64,000 nucleotides of DNA from assembly GCF_023638035.1 (NCBI RefSeq), contig NZ_JAKRVX010000002.1, positions 124,001 through 188,000 on the forward strand, read 5' to 3'. This document shows, piece after piece, positions 29,114 through 38,403 of this stretch (position 1 is the first letter of the stretch; each line of letters starts with the position of its first letter). This stretch comes from Natronocalculus amylovorans. GTDB taxonomy: Archaea > Halobacteriota > Halobacteria > Halobacteriales > Haloferacaceae. Below the pieces are notes generated by a model, which searched no databases, was not told the DNA's origin, and worked only from the letters and a program-made list of their open reading frames with translations. The translations under genes were made by a program, and so were the position numbers.

Positions 29114-29680
29114 CTACCCCGCAAGGACTAGCCTGAGCCATCCAATTTTTGGAATTCGAGCCTGGCCTTTTGCTTCGATCCACTCCGGTTTGACAGGCGG
29201 AGCCGTTCCACTCACCTGGTCATACCGACTATTGTTATCGCCATGCGTAATGTAGCCATCATTTGGAGCGGGACAGTTTCGAAGCTCATCACAGTCGGTT
29301 GTTGGAATCAGTGTTGGATCCGCCCGATCGGTCCAGTCTTCACCTGCAGTTACATAGAATGCGGCTCGATGAAAAATTGGTGACGCGGTCCATTCCGGCG
29401 GTGTAAACACAATTACGTCGCCATGTGAGCCGATCCGCTCATGTCCATTATTTTTGGCTTCTTCCTCAGTGACAATGCCATGTGTCTCCGCATCACCATC
29501 AAACCGATCGAGTGAGGAGACAATAATCAGATCGCCAGTGTTTGCATTTGGCTCCATACTCCCGCTTTCAACCGCAACCATCGGTGGCCATGTTCCGGTT
29601 ACACCAACAAGTACACCGATAAGAAGGATTGCAACGGTAACCGGCAGGAGGATATCAACGAGCAGTTCACGACGACCCAT
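29114..29680 (-). CDS. sec11: Archaeal-type signal peptidase I (S26B)
   Basis: A 188-residue membrane-bound signal peptidase that removes Sec signal peptides. A transmembrane helix at about 8-28 (VDILLPVTVAILLIGVLVGV) precedes ESGSMEPNANTGDL with catalytic Ser41. The second catalytic residue is His104 in ASPIFHRAAF, as in the ER/archaeal Ser-His type that replaces the bacterial Lys, and THGDNN (about 147-152) gives the Asp. Length is short-to-normal for haloarchaeal Sec11 proteins. Confidence 0.9.
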   Translation of the reverse strand: MGRRELLVDILLPVTVAILLIGVLVGVTGTWPPMVAVESGSMEPNANTGDLIIVSSLDRFDGDAETHGIVTEEEAKNNGHERIGSHGDVIVFTPPEWTASPIFHRAAFYVTAGEDWTDRADPTLIPTTDCDELRNCPAPNDGYITHGDNNSRYDQVSGTAPPVKPEWIEAKGQARIPKIGWLRLVLAG

Positions 29681-29732: not shown

Positions 29733-30995
29733 TTAGTTGAGAGAAACGGGCGTTCCAAACGCATAGACCGTTTGATGGCTCGTCACCTCTAGCGTACAGA
29801 AATCACCGGGTGAGAGGCCATACTCCGAGGCGTTCTGGACGATAATCTGTCGATACGCGCCATCTCGGCATTTAACAGAATCTCCTACCCCATCTTGCAC
29901 AACAAGCACATCTTGGGTGGTTCCAATCATCGACTCGTAGGCAGCTGCGACAACCTCCATCTTCAGCGAGGACATCGCTTTTGATCGCTCCTTTTTGAGT
30001 GTACCTCCGAGCCCTTTCATGTTGGCTGCATCGGTCCCCGGACGCTTCGAAAACCGTGTCACATTGATTTTTTCGGGACGAACCTCCGCAAGCAGCTCCA
30101 TCGACTGTTCATGATCCGCGTCTGTCTCTGTTGGGAATCCGACAATGAAATCCGTCGATAGCGTCCAGTAATCAAGCTCGGCGTTAAACGTGTCAACAAT
30201 CTCTTTGAATTTTTCAACGCGATGTTGTCTGCGCATCTCCGCAAGTACGTCATCGCTCCCGGATTGGACCGGAAGGTGGATGAAATTGTAGAGTTTTTCA
30301 TGTCGATCGAACACGTCCACCAACTCCTCGTGAATCCCATGGATACCTCCCGGGTTAGCCATTCCAAGCCGAACTCTGAACTCGCCATCAATCTCCGAGC
30401 AGATCCGATCGAGCAGTTCCGGGAGCTTTCTGTCGCCGTTATCCCATCCGTAGACACCGGTATCCTGCCCGGTGATTCGGATCTCTTTGGCACCGGCGTG
30501 GACGAGTGCGCGTGCCTTTCGGACATTCTCCTCGACCGATGGCGAATCAACCCGGCCAGTTGCAAACTTGGTGATACAGTACGAACAGTTCGACATACAG
30601 CCGCGAGCGATCGGCAAAATTCCTATGACACCGTCCAAGATGGGTTCCGTATCCGGCGTGACCGTTGGGCATTCGCCGTTGAGGACTGCCTCTGGCACCT
30701 CGTCCCAATGAAGAACTTGCGCATCAACACCTGCATTTGTGAACTCGTCACCCTGTGCGAGCGCCATACAGCCGGTTACAATGAGGTCAGTTGTCTCTCC
30801 CTCGAGCTCTTTGGCACGAGAAAGCATGTTCCGCTCGGTTTTTTCGACCACTGTACAGGTATTTAAAATAGCGACGTCGGCCTCGTCGAGACTTGGTGCA
30901 GGGTAGTGTCCGCCCTCGCGGAGCGCCTGCTCGATCTGGCGACTTTCACCCTGATTTGACGTACAGCCGTACGTCTCGATATGATACGTGGCCAT
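29733..30995 (-). CDS. tRNA methylthiotransferase (MtaB/CDKAL1-type radical SAM)
   Basis: A 420-residue methylthiotransferase of the MiaB/MtaB group, which makes 2-methylthio-N6-threonylcarbamoyladenosine at position 37 of tRNA. The N-terminal UPF0004 domain has Cys in ETYGCTSNQGE, LNTCTVVEKTE and VTGCMALAQG; the radical SAM motif is RGCMSNCSYCITKFATGR (about 131-148, CxxxCxxC). A TRAM domain is at the C-terminus (DVLVVQDGVGDSVKCRDGAYRQIIVQN). This is the archaeal/eukaryotic e-MtaB type, judged by the short extension. Gene upstream of it is divergent or unrelated. Confidence 0.94.
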   Translation of the reverse strand: MATYHIETYGCTSNQGESRQIEQALREGGHYPAPSLDEADVAILNTCTVVEKTERNMLSRAKELEGETTDLIVTGCMALAQGDEFTNAGVDAQVLHWDEVPEAVLNGECPTVTPDTEPILDGVIGILPIARGCMSNCSYCITKFATGRVDSPSVEENVRKARALVHAGAKEIRITGQDTGVYGWDNGDRKLPELLDRICSEIDGEFRVRLGMANPGGIHGIHEELVDVFDRHEKLYNFIHLPVQSGSDDVLAEMRRQHRVEKFKEIVDTFNAELDYWTLSTDFIVGFPTETDADHEQSMELLAEVRPEKINVTRFSKRPGTDAANMKGLGGTLKKERSKAMSSLKMEVVAAAYESMIGTTQDVLVVQDGVGDSVKCRDGAYRQIIVQNASEYGLSPGDFCTLEVTSHQTVYAFGTPVSLN

Positions 30996-31143: not shown

Positions 31144-31656
31144 TCAGCCAAACAGTCGATCGAGAAGCGACTGTTTCTGTGGGCGCTCTGCAAATAGCAC
31201 GGAGGATTCAACTTCGTTCACCACATCAATATGCCGCTCGCGTTTATCTGGTCCGTATGGTGCATACGGGAGCGAGGTTTCCGATTGGACGAGCTCTTCA
31301 TCCTCAATTTCGATTCCCAAACTTGAGATAGCTCGTGCAATCCGTCGGAGATCGTGAATATCTTCACCGATCGCCAAGACGTGGAGATTTCGCCGGCCAG
31401 TCATTAGTTCACGGACATTGATGACTCCTGGCACAGCCTTTACTTTGGATCCAAACGACTCTCGTTCTGCAATTGGCGCATTACAGAGATAGATGTTTGT
31501 AAGGCTACCGTCTGCAGCCTCAAAATCTATTGCTGCGTGGTACCCAGTGATAATTTGCTCAGCTTCGAGGTTTGTAATCCGATTCCGGATTGTTGCAGCA
31601 GTAACATCCAGCTCGTTTGCAAGGTCGGGAGGCGACGCATGCCTTGCATCATCCAT
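31144..31656 (-). CDS. Lrp/AsnC family regulator; N-terminus probably longer, in frame with deoC stop
   Basis: At least 170 residues of an Lrp-type regulator: HTH SPPDLANELDVTAATIRNRITNLEAEQIITGYHAAIDFE and a RAM-like domain IYLCNAPIAERESFGSKVKAVPGVINVREL. The first ATG (31654-31656) cuts the HTH short. Upstream codons 31657-31713 encode NQLDEIDRRIIYAV, the usual Lrp N-terminus, but hold no ATG, GTG or TTG; they begin directly after the deoC TAA at 31714-31716 in the same frame. The true start may be a non-canonical codon, or the stop may be read through. See findings. Confidence 0.85.
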   Translation of the reverse strand: MDDARHASPPDLANELDVTAATIRNRITNLEAEQIITGYHAAIDFEAADGSLTNIYLCNAPIAERESFGSKVKAVPGVINVRELMTGRRNLHVLAIGEDIHDLRRIARAISSLGIEIEDEELVQSETSLPYAPYGPDKRERHIDVVNEVESSVLFAERPQKQSLLDRLFG

Positions 31657-31713
31657 GACTGCATAGATGATTCGACGGTCGATCTCGTCTAGTTGATTCG
31701 CCGGTGATTCACG

Positions 31714-32373
31714 TTACTCCGGTGCACCGGTGACAATTGAGACGCCGCTTGAAGCACCAATTCGTTCCGCACCAGCCTCAATCATTGCGATTGCGTCCTC
31801 GTAGCTTCCAATGCCACCGCTTGCTTTGACCGGGAGATACGCCGACATGAGCTCAACATCTGCAACCGTTGCGCCACCCGTGGTTCCTTCGTAGCCCGAT
31901 GAATCCGCAAATCCAGTTGCTGTCTTTACCATCGCTGCGTCCGCTGATTGAACTGCACTACACGCACGGTGCTTCTCTTCGTCAGTGAGCAATGGCGTTT
32001 CAATAATGACTTTCACCGGGATCGGGACTGCTGCAACGACTTCCGCGATTTCGGATTCAACCGCGTCACCTGCACCTGATTTGAGCCGTCCAATATTAAT
32101 CACCATATCAACCTCATCAGCCCCGGCTTTCCATGCAACGACCGCTTCTTGTTGTTTTGTTGTCGGCGCATTTTGTCCGTGGGGGAATCCGACGACGGTT
32201 GCGATCGTCGTCTCCGGTGCGTACTCGGCTGCCTCTGCGACGTAGCATGGTGGGATACAGACGTTCATTCCGTACTCGATCGCCGCATCGAGCACGTGCT
32301 TCACATCGTCGATCGTCGTCTCTGGCCCGAGCACGGTATGGTCAATCATCGGTGCAAGCGTTTGTTGGTCCAT
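31714..32373 (-). CDS. deoC: Deoxyribose-phosphate aldolase
   Basis: A 219-residue class I aldolase that splits 2-deoxyribose 5-phosphate to acetaldehyde and glyceraldehyde 3-phosphate in nucleoside catabolism. The blocks [17 protein letters not shown] (N-terminus), [20 protein letters not shown] (Schiff-base region) and [22 protein letters not shown] (catalytic Lys) are all present, with [14 protein letters not shown] binding phosphate. Full length. Its stop is followed at once, in frame, by the Lrp-like regulator. A uridine-phosphorylase-like gene at 33971 may work in the same salvage route. Confidence 0.96.
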
Positions 32374-32474: not shown

Positions 32475-33338
32475 ATGGACTTCTCTGTTCTGGAGATGCT
32501 TGTTTTGCAGTTTCCGTCCCTGTTGCCGGATGGGTTTGCACTCCCACCGCTGCCATACTTGATCGGATTGCTTGCCGCACTTGCAGCCGTTGGGTATGGA
32601 TTATTTCAGGCCAAACCGACGGTCGAAGAAGCACAGATTCTCGCACTCGTACCATGGATCTCAGTAGGTGCAGCAGGCCACGTACTGTTCGTGATCGGTG
32701 GGCTTCCAGCAGTGTTGGAGCCATTGGGTGGGACTCCAGCAGTGTATCTGAGCACCGCTGCGATCGCGGGGGCGGTGTGGATTATCAGCAATAAAAGAAG
32801 TACCGAAGAACAGCTGCCGTTCATTTTGGGCGGTGTTGGTGCGGTCGTATTGCTTCCGCTTGTTGGTGCGATCGTTTATATTGGTGCACAGCAAGCCTCA
32901 CTCGAGCTATTTTGGCCGACAGTTGCCGCGATCGCATCTATCCCCGTCACAGCAGGTGTTTGGGCCCTATTTAAACGAATCCGCCCATCAGATGCAGCAG
33001 TCACCGGGGTAGTTGGGCTCCTTGCGGTGTTTGGGCATGTACTTGATGCGGTCTCTACGACGGTTGGAATCGATATCCTTGGATTCGGTGAGCGAACTCC
33101 ACTCTCCAGAGAGATTATTCTGTTTGCTGACTCGCTCCCAACTGCGGAGTTCATCGGTGCAGGGTGGCTGTTCATTATTGTAAAAGTCATCATCGTCTGC
33201 GGTGTCGTTGCGCTCATGGCAGAGTATGTTGATGAAGAACCAACGGAAGGGCGGCTGCTGCTTGGGTTTATTGCTGCAGTCGGGCTTGGGCCTGCAGTTC
33301 ACAACCTCCTCTTATTTGCTGCAACTGCCGGGATATAG
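32475..33338 (+). CDS. DUF63 family membrane protein
   Basis: A 287-residue membrane protein with about eight hydrophobic segments. The Pro-rich LPPLPYLIGLLAALAAVGYG near the N-terminus and the FGHVLDAVSTTVGIDILGFGERTPLSREII segment (about 190-220) followed by FIGAGWLFIIVKVIIV resemble archaeal DUF63 proteins. The role is unknown. The ATG lies close downstream of the divergent deoC promoter. Confidence 0.83.
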   Translation: MDFSVLEMLVLQFPSLLPDGFALPPLPYLIGLLAALAAVGYGLFQAKPTVEEAQILALVPWISVGAAGHVLFVIGGLPAVLEPLGGTPAVYLSTAAIAGAVWIISNKRSTEEQLPFILGGVGAVVLLPLVGAIVYIGAQQASLELFWPTVAAIASIPVTAGVWALFKRIRPSDAAVTGVVGLLAVFGHVLDAVSTTVGIDILGFGERTPLSREIILFADSLPTAEFIGAGWLFIIVKVIIVCGVVALMAEYVDEEPTEGRLLLGFIAAVGLGPAVHNLLLFAATAGI

Positions 33339-35968: not shown

Positions 35969-37201
35969 ATGGCGCTTCCGTTTGAGATTCTCTTGGGCAT
36001 CTATCTTGGTGTGCTGACCGGAATCATTCCGGCAGTGATCGCTGGACTGCTCGGATTTGTATTCAAGTATTTTACGGGTGTAACGATTCCTGGGCTTGGT
36101 GTTGTTGTTCTAGCATTAGCAATTGCAGGAGTCAATGGTGGGCTGATGGCACTTGCTGACGAGAATATCCAGACCTCAGAGAATGCCGTTGCAGTCGTTA
36201 CGGCAATTATTGTTGTGTTGATGCTCTCGCTGTACGCACACTCGCAAGGTGACAAACTTGGTGCAAACGTCCCGCGAAAGATTTCGCTTCGAAAGTTTCG
36301 CGATCGAACACTCAATACAGATGTGGTCGAGCTTGTTGGTGGACGAAACCAAGTACGTGTAACCGTTATTGGTGAAATTGGTGACTTGGAAGGCTACCCA
36401 CCACTTACCACCGCAGATCGGACTGCGATCAAAGAAGGGGAGTGGACGTTTCCTGCAGATATCCCGATCGAAGAGCTTGAAACACGGTTTGCTGACCGAC
36501 TCCGATCAGAATTAGACCTCGCAGATGTGTCTGCAAATATTACAACAGATGCGAAGGCAACGGTTTCAGCAGCTCCACCGGCTGGAAGCACCTCAAAACG
36601 GGTCCCAAAAGGCAAACGTGCAGTCTCAATCAGTGCAGTTATTCCAGGTGGATTGGCTCGTGGTGAGCACGTTCAAATACTCACAAAAAATGGGTCAATT
36701 GCTGGTGAGTTAATCGCAGCGAAATCCGGTGAAAAAAAGAAGGATAAAGAAAAAGAAGCGGAGGCCACCGCAACCACAGATGTACAGACGGATGGGGGGA
36801 CAGACAGTGCCAGTGGAGCTACTCAACCGCTCACAACAGGAGGAGAAGGCCGAATAACGGTTGCGGTCCCTCGGTCAGCAGCAAAAACACTGTTGCAGTC
36901 CGAACGTGGGACGGTTATTGTGCTTTCTCGAGGAACAAGGCGGGAGTTTGAACTCGCGACGATCCTACGGCAGGCTGGTGCGAGATTGAAAAAAGTGACC
37001 GTGGTTGCTGGTGGCCCGTTAGATGGCACGACAATCGGAGAAAACCGAGTTAGAGAAACATACCGTGTTGTCATCATCGCTGCGAAACACGAACGCTGGC
37101 AGGTAACGCCAAGCGGATCACAGCCACTCAGTGCCGGTGATGATCTCTATGTGATTGGCACCCAAGATGATCTCCGATCATTCACGGAGGCAGCAGCATG
37201 A
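35969..37201 (+). CDS. Membrane-anchored RCK_C (TrkA-C) protein 1
   Basis: A 410-residue protein. Three hydrophobic segments at the N-terminus (about 6-30, 38-60, 75-95) anchor it, a linker holds KKKDKEKEAEATATTD (about 250-265), and the C-terminal TrkA-C/RCK_C module (RLKKVTVVAGGPLDGTTIGE...DDLYVIGTQDDL) would bind a ligand. It has no pore loop or TrkA-N domain. Its stop overlaps the next start by 4 bp (37198-37201). It lies divergent from the potassium channel, so a regulatory subunit for that channel or another transporter is likely. Confidence 0.82.
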   Translation: MALPFEILLGIYLGVLTGIIPAVIAGLLGFVFKYFTGVTIPGLGVVVLALAIAGVNGGLMALADENIQTSENAVAVVTAIIVVLMLSLYAHSQGDKLGANVPRKISLRKFRDRTLNTDVVELVGGRNQVRVTVIGEIGDLEGYPPLTTADRTAIKEGEWTFPADIPIEELETRFADRLRSELDLADVSANITTDAKATVSAAPPAGSTSKRVPKGKRAVSISAVIPGGLARGEHVQILTKNGSIAGELIAAKSGEKKKDKEKEAEATATTDVQTDGGTDSASGATQPLTTGGEGRITVAVPRSAAKTLLQSERGTVIVLSRGTRREFELATILRQAGARLKKVTVVAGGPLDGTTIGENRVRETYRVVIIAAKHERWQVTPSGSQPLSAGDDLYVIGTQDDLRSFTEAAA

Positions 37202-38403
37202 TTGAGACCGAATTGATCCTTGGACAGTCCGGTGTTACATTCTCCGATCCGCTTGTTGCAATGATCACGCTCGTTATTTATAGTATCCTCTCAGTATTCG
37301 GTGCTGGAGTAATTGCGGTTATCTATCGGTGGTATTTCCGTGAGGAGGTGCCAGAGGGGATTGCAATTCTGATCGGCGTTGCAGTTGTTGCACTCTACAT
37401 TAACACCGCATCTCTTGGTGTAGTGGTTGGAGAAGGTGCTGTTGACCTATTTAGAATCGAAGTGGTACTTTTCAATGTGGTAGCACTCGGTGTGGCGACA
37501 GCAGGTGCACCAGTTGGACAGCGGCTGGGGGACCGAATCGCAGTGGATGTGTTTGCAATTCGAGGGCTTCGAGACATTGAAGGAGAAATGGGCAAAGTTG
37601 TTCGATCGGTTGGTCGGACAACAATGGTTACCCTTCCAACGGAGATTGAAGACATGGATAGCTACGACCCAGTCTCGAAAGAGACAAAAACCGAGATGGC
37701 CGGCAAGCGATTCCATTTCCCACGGCGATTAACTGTTGAAGAGCTTCGAGAACGGATTGTTGATCGAATTAAAGAAGATTACGCGGTTGGCTATGTTGAT
37801 GTTGATCTCACTGATGACGGACAGATTGACTACTTAGCGGTTGGTTCACGAATGGCCGGTGTGGGACCAACACTTGCGCCAGGCACAGTTGCAATTGCGG
37901 TCACTGCAGACCCACCAAACAACGCGGCAGCAGGGGACCTGGTACAGCTGTGGACGGCTGCTGAGGGCCCAGAACTTGTGGTATCTGGCGAGCTTCGAAG
38001 CGTCTCTGGCGATATCTCGACGATTGCGATCGATGAAAATGATATCGAAACAGTGGATCCATCCCAAAGCTACCGATTGGTGACGCTCCCGGAAACACCA
38101 CGTCCTGATCGGGAGTTTGCCACCCTTCTGCGAAGCGTTGATGAAACAATCGCTTCGGTTGAGGTGTCCCCAGAAAGTCTACTCACGGATGAAACCCTAT
38201 CCATGACAGACGCAATTATCATTGCCGTCCGATCCGCAGATGGGACGCTTGAAGCGTTACCTGCTCGTGATCGAGTCTTTTCCGGAAATGAAACGGTGTA
38301 TGCGATCGGCCGCCCGGCCGTCCTTCGACGGCTCGAAGAGGCTGCAACGACACCAAAGCCAGCGGCTGAACAGCCGGAAGTGCAAGCCGAACCTGCTGAC
38401 TAA
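37198..38403 (+). CDS. Membrane-anchored RCK_C (TrkA-C) protein 2
   Basis: A 401-residue paralogue with the same plan: three hydrophobic segments (about 20-45, 58-78, 85-105), a soluble middle with EEVPEGIAIL, MDSYDPVSKETK and a C-terminal RCK_C-like module (SVEVSPESLLTDETLSMTDAIIIAVRSADG and NETVYAIGRPAVLRRLEE). No pore or N-terminal nucleotide-binding domain is seen. Translationally coupled to the first copy (ATGA overlap), which implies a heteromeric complex. It ends 113 bp before the MoaD-like gene. Confidence 0.8.
   Translation: MIETELILGQSGVTFSDPLVAMITLVIYSILSVFGAGVIAVIYRWYFREEVPEGIAILIGVAVVALYINTASLGVVVGEGAVDLFRIEVVLFNVVALGVATAGAPVGQRLGDRIAVDVFAIRGLRDIEGEMGKVVRSVGRTTMVTLPTEIEDMDSYDPVSKETKTEMAGKRFHFPRRLTVEELRERIVDRIKEDYAVGYVDVDLTDDGQIDYLAVGSRMAGVGPTLAPGTVAIAVTADPPNNAAAGDLVQLWTAAEGPELVVSGELRSVSGDISTIAIDENDIETVDPSQSYRLVTLPETPRPDREFATLLRSVDETIASVEVSPESLLTDETLSMTDAIIIAVRSADGTLEALPARDRVFSGNETVYAIGRPAVLRRLEEAATTPKPAAEQPEVQAEPAD

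Follow-up and report, generated by a model that had tools for sequence, protein, structure and literature searches.

A start-less lrp reading frame downstream of deoC in Natronocalculus amylovorans as a probable deletion-made chimaeric gene

Layout of the deoC–lrp locus

The reading frame described here lies on the minus strand between two well-conserved genes in a 64-kb stretch of the Natronocalculus amylovorans genome (the window, i.e. the whole stretch that was analysed). The genome (3.26 Mb, 20 contigs) has been assembled to 99% completeness. In order of transcription, starting from the divergent gene upstream of deoC, the locus contains the following features:

32475..33338, plus strand: DUF63 membrane protein gene, divergent from deoC, kept on the other flank
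31714..32373, minus strand: deoC, deoxyribose-phosphate aldolase (DeoC/LacD family, PF01791), intact, 219 aa
31696..31713, minus strand: junction from the deoC stop to the conserved Gln codon, 18 nt, start-less in the lrp frame
31234..31695, minus strand: 5' portion of an Lrp/AsnC gene, TrkA-C (Trh2-like) type, with HTH and middle domain (alignment, Pfam)
31228..31233, minus strand: deletion breakpoint by alignment to relatives, in-frame join of Lrp-derived and permease-derived sequence
31144..31227, minus strand: last 27-28 codons and stop of an APC/Usp amino-acid permease gene, IDVVNEVESSVLFAERPQKQSLLDRLFG (tail alignment)
29733..30995, minus strand: MiaB-like radical-SAM (UPF0004) gene, intact; downstream of the permease gene in relatives
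29114..29680, minus strand: S26 signal-peptidase-like gene, next in the conserved order

The order of the DUF63, deoC, miaB-like and S26 peptidase genes around the anomalous frame is conserved with respect to relatives. Since these four neighbours align over essentially their full length with zero frameshifts (deoC with 72-73% identity to its syntenic relatives, full length), the local sequence quality looks good.

The start region and the deoC junction

On the minus strand deoC runs from the ATG at 32373 to a TAA at 31716-31714. In the same frame 19 sense codons follow (CGT GAA TCA CCG GCG AAT CAA CTA GAC GAG ATC GAC CGT CGA ATC ATC TAT GCA GTC) that encode the Lrp N-terminus, RESPANQLDEIDRRIIYAV, and the reading frame continues for 189 codons in all before the TGA at 31146-31144. 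We searched the 19 codons in frame for ATG, GTG and TTG and found none; the first ATG is located at 31656. This confirms the preliminary description, according to which the lrp frame leaves the deoC stop codon without a normal start. When the codons ahead of the first ATG are included, Pfam recognizes an AsnC-type HTH (PF13404, E=1.8e-7; PF13412, E=5.6e-9), whereas for a protein starting at ATG 31656 no HTH model was matched. Re-initiation after deoC might still yield a truncated, useful protein from this ATG, which encodes a conserved Met and is followed by 170 codons; we regard this as scarcely credible, as such a product fits no HTH model and as manual curation of haloarchaeal genomes has identified the internal Met codons of disrupted genes as being at risk of misreading as starts (PMC4500146).

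The same locus is found in five genomes of one neighbouring genus (G035, G009, G117, G118 and G119). There the order is deoC, lrp, APC/Usp permease and miaB-like gene, with S26 peptidase genes further on and DUF63 divergent from deoC, and both lrp and the permease gene are full-length in all five. In each of them the lrp ATG lies 2 nt past the deoC stop and the distance from this stop to the conserved Gln is 17 nt, compared to 18 nt in the window; in the relatives lrp is therefore out of the deoC frame. The loss of the start is thus seen as a difference from relatives that have ATG in 5/5 cases. Lrp proteins from related genera nearly all begin with a plain ATG just ahead of the conserved Q/R-LDE-ID. 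The frame shared by deoC and lrp in the window is a by-product of an indel (18 versus 17 nt) and a 1-in-3 coincidence; the missing start is not a matter of chance.

These comparisons bear on two explanations put forward from the sequence at first reading. Non-canonical initiation would allow the sequence as it stands to yield the complete Lrp N-terminus, and the open frame and the well-conserved N-terminal helix agree with it. However, no near-cognate start precedes the conserved Gln, as CGT, GAA, TCA, CCG, GCG, AAT, CAA and CTA all differ from ATG by more than one base, and the first codons one base away from ATG are ATC codons inside the conserved helix. With a plain ATG in almost all relatives in addition, we find this explanation unsupported and highly improbable. 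Read-through of the deoC stop into a DeoC-Lrp fusion protein fits the agreement of the two frames and the 19 stop-free codons. Against it stand the 1-in-3 nature of the shared frame, the own ATG of lrp in the other frame in 5/5 syntenic genomes and a gap of nearly 2 kb between deoC and lrp in the g21 genomes; the junction comparison leaves read-through a negligible chance.

A deletion between lrp and the permease gene

The preliminary description missed that, by alignment, the 3' end of the frame is the tail of a permease and not Lrp. Residues 4-159 of the Lrp protein of G035 align to 31701-31234 with 68.6% identity, and past 31234 the similarity to Lrp is lost. In general, Lrp proteins from related genera share ~70% identity with the Lrp part of the window. 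Orthologous Lrp proteins comprise about 245-250 residues and have a TrkA-C domain (PF02080 in Pfam, residues 175-233 in G035), which is absent from a Pfam search of the window protein. Among 52 related lrp loci, 50 reach the TrkA-C domain and two have no TrkA-C match. The segment 31227-31147 corresponds to residues 721-747 of the 754-residue permease that adjoins lrp in the relatives. It matches the permease C-termini of nine genomes with E=1e-7 to 1e-10. Aligned without gaps it scores 90, whereas the highest of 5000 shuffles reaches 19 and the second-best position anywhere in the window 27; these E-values and shuffle scores rule out a chance match. The miaB-like gene directly follows the tail, as it follows the permease gene in relatives. 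Apart from this tail, the locus shows no trace of the permease or the missing Lrp domain. More than 95% of the permease gene is deleted here.

Each half of the frame thus aligns to a different gene, and in the relatives these two genes are neighbours and both intact; the missing piece amounts to ~2.7 kb, as measured on G035 (10035 to 7323 in L036). Comparison with intact relatives that are not close revealed no convincing microhomology at the breakpoints. From the sequence comparisons we consider it very likely (probability about 0.86) that the start-less frame is a disrupted, chimaeric gene that arose by this deletion, lost its start as well and was inactivated recently. The ancestor would have had the order deoC, lrp (HTH, middle domain and TrkA-C), APC/Usp amino-acid permease and miaB-like gene. 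Alignment and gene order show that a single deletion of ~2.7 kb from about lrp codon 160 to about permease codon 720 took the TrkA-C domain, the intergenic stretch and most of the permease, and that it joined both genes in frame by chance. At the start region, as the difference from the relatives shows, an indel or substitutions erased the ATG, presumably after the deletion or else before it. Of the possibilities raised in the preliminary description it is therefore the fragmented regulator that is borne out, with the Lrp C-terminal domain, most of the next gene and the start all lost.

A different view would accept the deletion but attribute the missing start to a one-base sequencing or assembly error, so that the cell would produce a functional, shortened Lrp that lacks TrkA-C. 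The spacing indeed differs by one net base, and a GTG (31712-31710) lies just past the deoC stop, overlapping the junction (TAA-C-GTG) in another frame that hits a TAG after 7 codons; the codons of the lrp part also look constrained (see below). The neighbouring genes are nevertheless frameshift-free in an assembly of high completeness, and the TrkA-C domain and the permease are lost whatever the start, so that the gene would be damaged regardless. We consider such an error, combined with a working protein, unlikely.

The loss is plausible, because a full-length lrp paralogue with an ATG (C12:597005) and other APC permeases, in complete or near-complete copies, remain elsewhere in the genome. 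A scan of genome contigs returned one distant relative, and viral contigs gave none. Beside the intact paralogue we observed two N-terminal APC permease fragments (63-90 residues) in opposite orientations (L039 5772-6428, G000:C12:595771-596427); this second lrp-permease neighbourhood of the genome also looks eroded. Within the window, two adjoining membrane proteins of about 400 aa are encoded on the plus strand at 35969-38403, and the end of the first shows a weak match to the C-terminal, TrkA-C-type portion of Lrp in the relatives (29% identity, E=4e-6).

Ancestral partner and state of the remnant

The gene order had suggested at first that the regulator controls deoC. We counted the neighbours of lrp in the 52 related loci within 1.5 kb on each side (2.5 kb for one locus): a permease or Usp gene lies beside lrp in 39 of them, deoC in only five, all of one genus. 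This gene order makes the permease, rather than deoC, the likely ancestral partner of lrp, and control of deoC doubtful. A second genus (G020, G092 and G093; L038, L067 and L068) has an extra permease/Usp gene of ~600 aa between deoC and lrp, which places the C-terminal tail of this gene just upstream of lrp; permease-type genes lie on both sides of lrp.

Considering sites that are invariant in the two relative genera and counting changes on the window branch, we found 16/111, 4/124 and 20/37 changes at codon positions 1, 2 and 3, respectively, a pattern as in constrained genes, which reflects constraint along most of this branch. Relaxation of constraint is not apparent on the long branch that leads to the relatives, where a recent event would not show. 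Likewise, compared with deoC or the miaB-like gene, the window lrp shows no clear acceleration, which says nothing about a recent death. As the remaining codons keep their third-position bias, the inactivation would be recent or the chimaera still in use; at the level of codons the constraint fits both a young pseudogene and a still-used chimaera. The chimaera might be a working short Lrp that the deletion has freed from its TrkA-C sensor and that is made via an uncharacterised start or by re-initiation after deoC, which we regard as very unlikely. For the recently inactivated gene, the frame would still be open because the remnant is young. As the remnant has neither a start codon nor the sensor domain nor a permease gene beside it, it is most likely not translated at all, or would yield only a fragment that begins at ATG 31656 and lacks the first HTH helix.

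With Trh2-type Lrp/AsnC proteins (FFRPs) the window gene shares the AsnC-type HTH and the middle domain (~70% identity to orthologues in related genera) and the place beside an APC/Usp permease; it differs in that it has neither start codon nor TrkA-C domain and in its 28 permease-derived C-terminal residues. The likeness to Trh2 itself is one of kind (TrkA-C type). For Trh2 of Halobacterium salinarum, TrkA-C was proposed to be the effector-response domain because the RAM domain is regarded as non-functional (PMC4236453). If this proposal holds here, the loss of TrkA-C leaves a chimaera devoid of sensor, start and neighbouring permease. From the APC-family permease with C-terminal Usp domains, only the last 27-28 residues and the stop survive after the lrp part. 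Among the described causes of gene inactivation in haloarchaea are larger deletions that create chimaeric genes, and small indels that shift the frame (PMC4500146, section 3.6). The window gene resembles those disrupted genes in its larger-deletion chimaera, the small change at its start and an internal Met open to misannotation, without any difference in kind.

Taken together, the anomaly most likely reflects a gene that died recently rather than an unusual translation start, and ordinary gene decay would explain the apparent lack of a start codon. The locus offers a clear case in which a regulator's sensor domain and the neighbouring permease were lost in one deletion. It also serves as a warning, since automatic gene calling could list a 170-aa 'Lrp regulator' that begins at ATG 31656. 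Should the frame be translated after all, it would make a small test case of haloarchaeal initiation.
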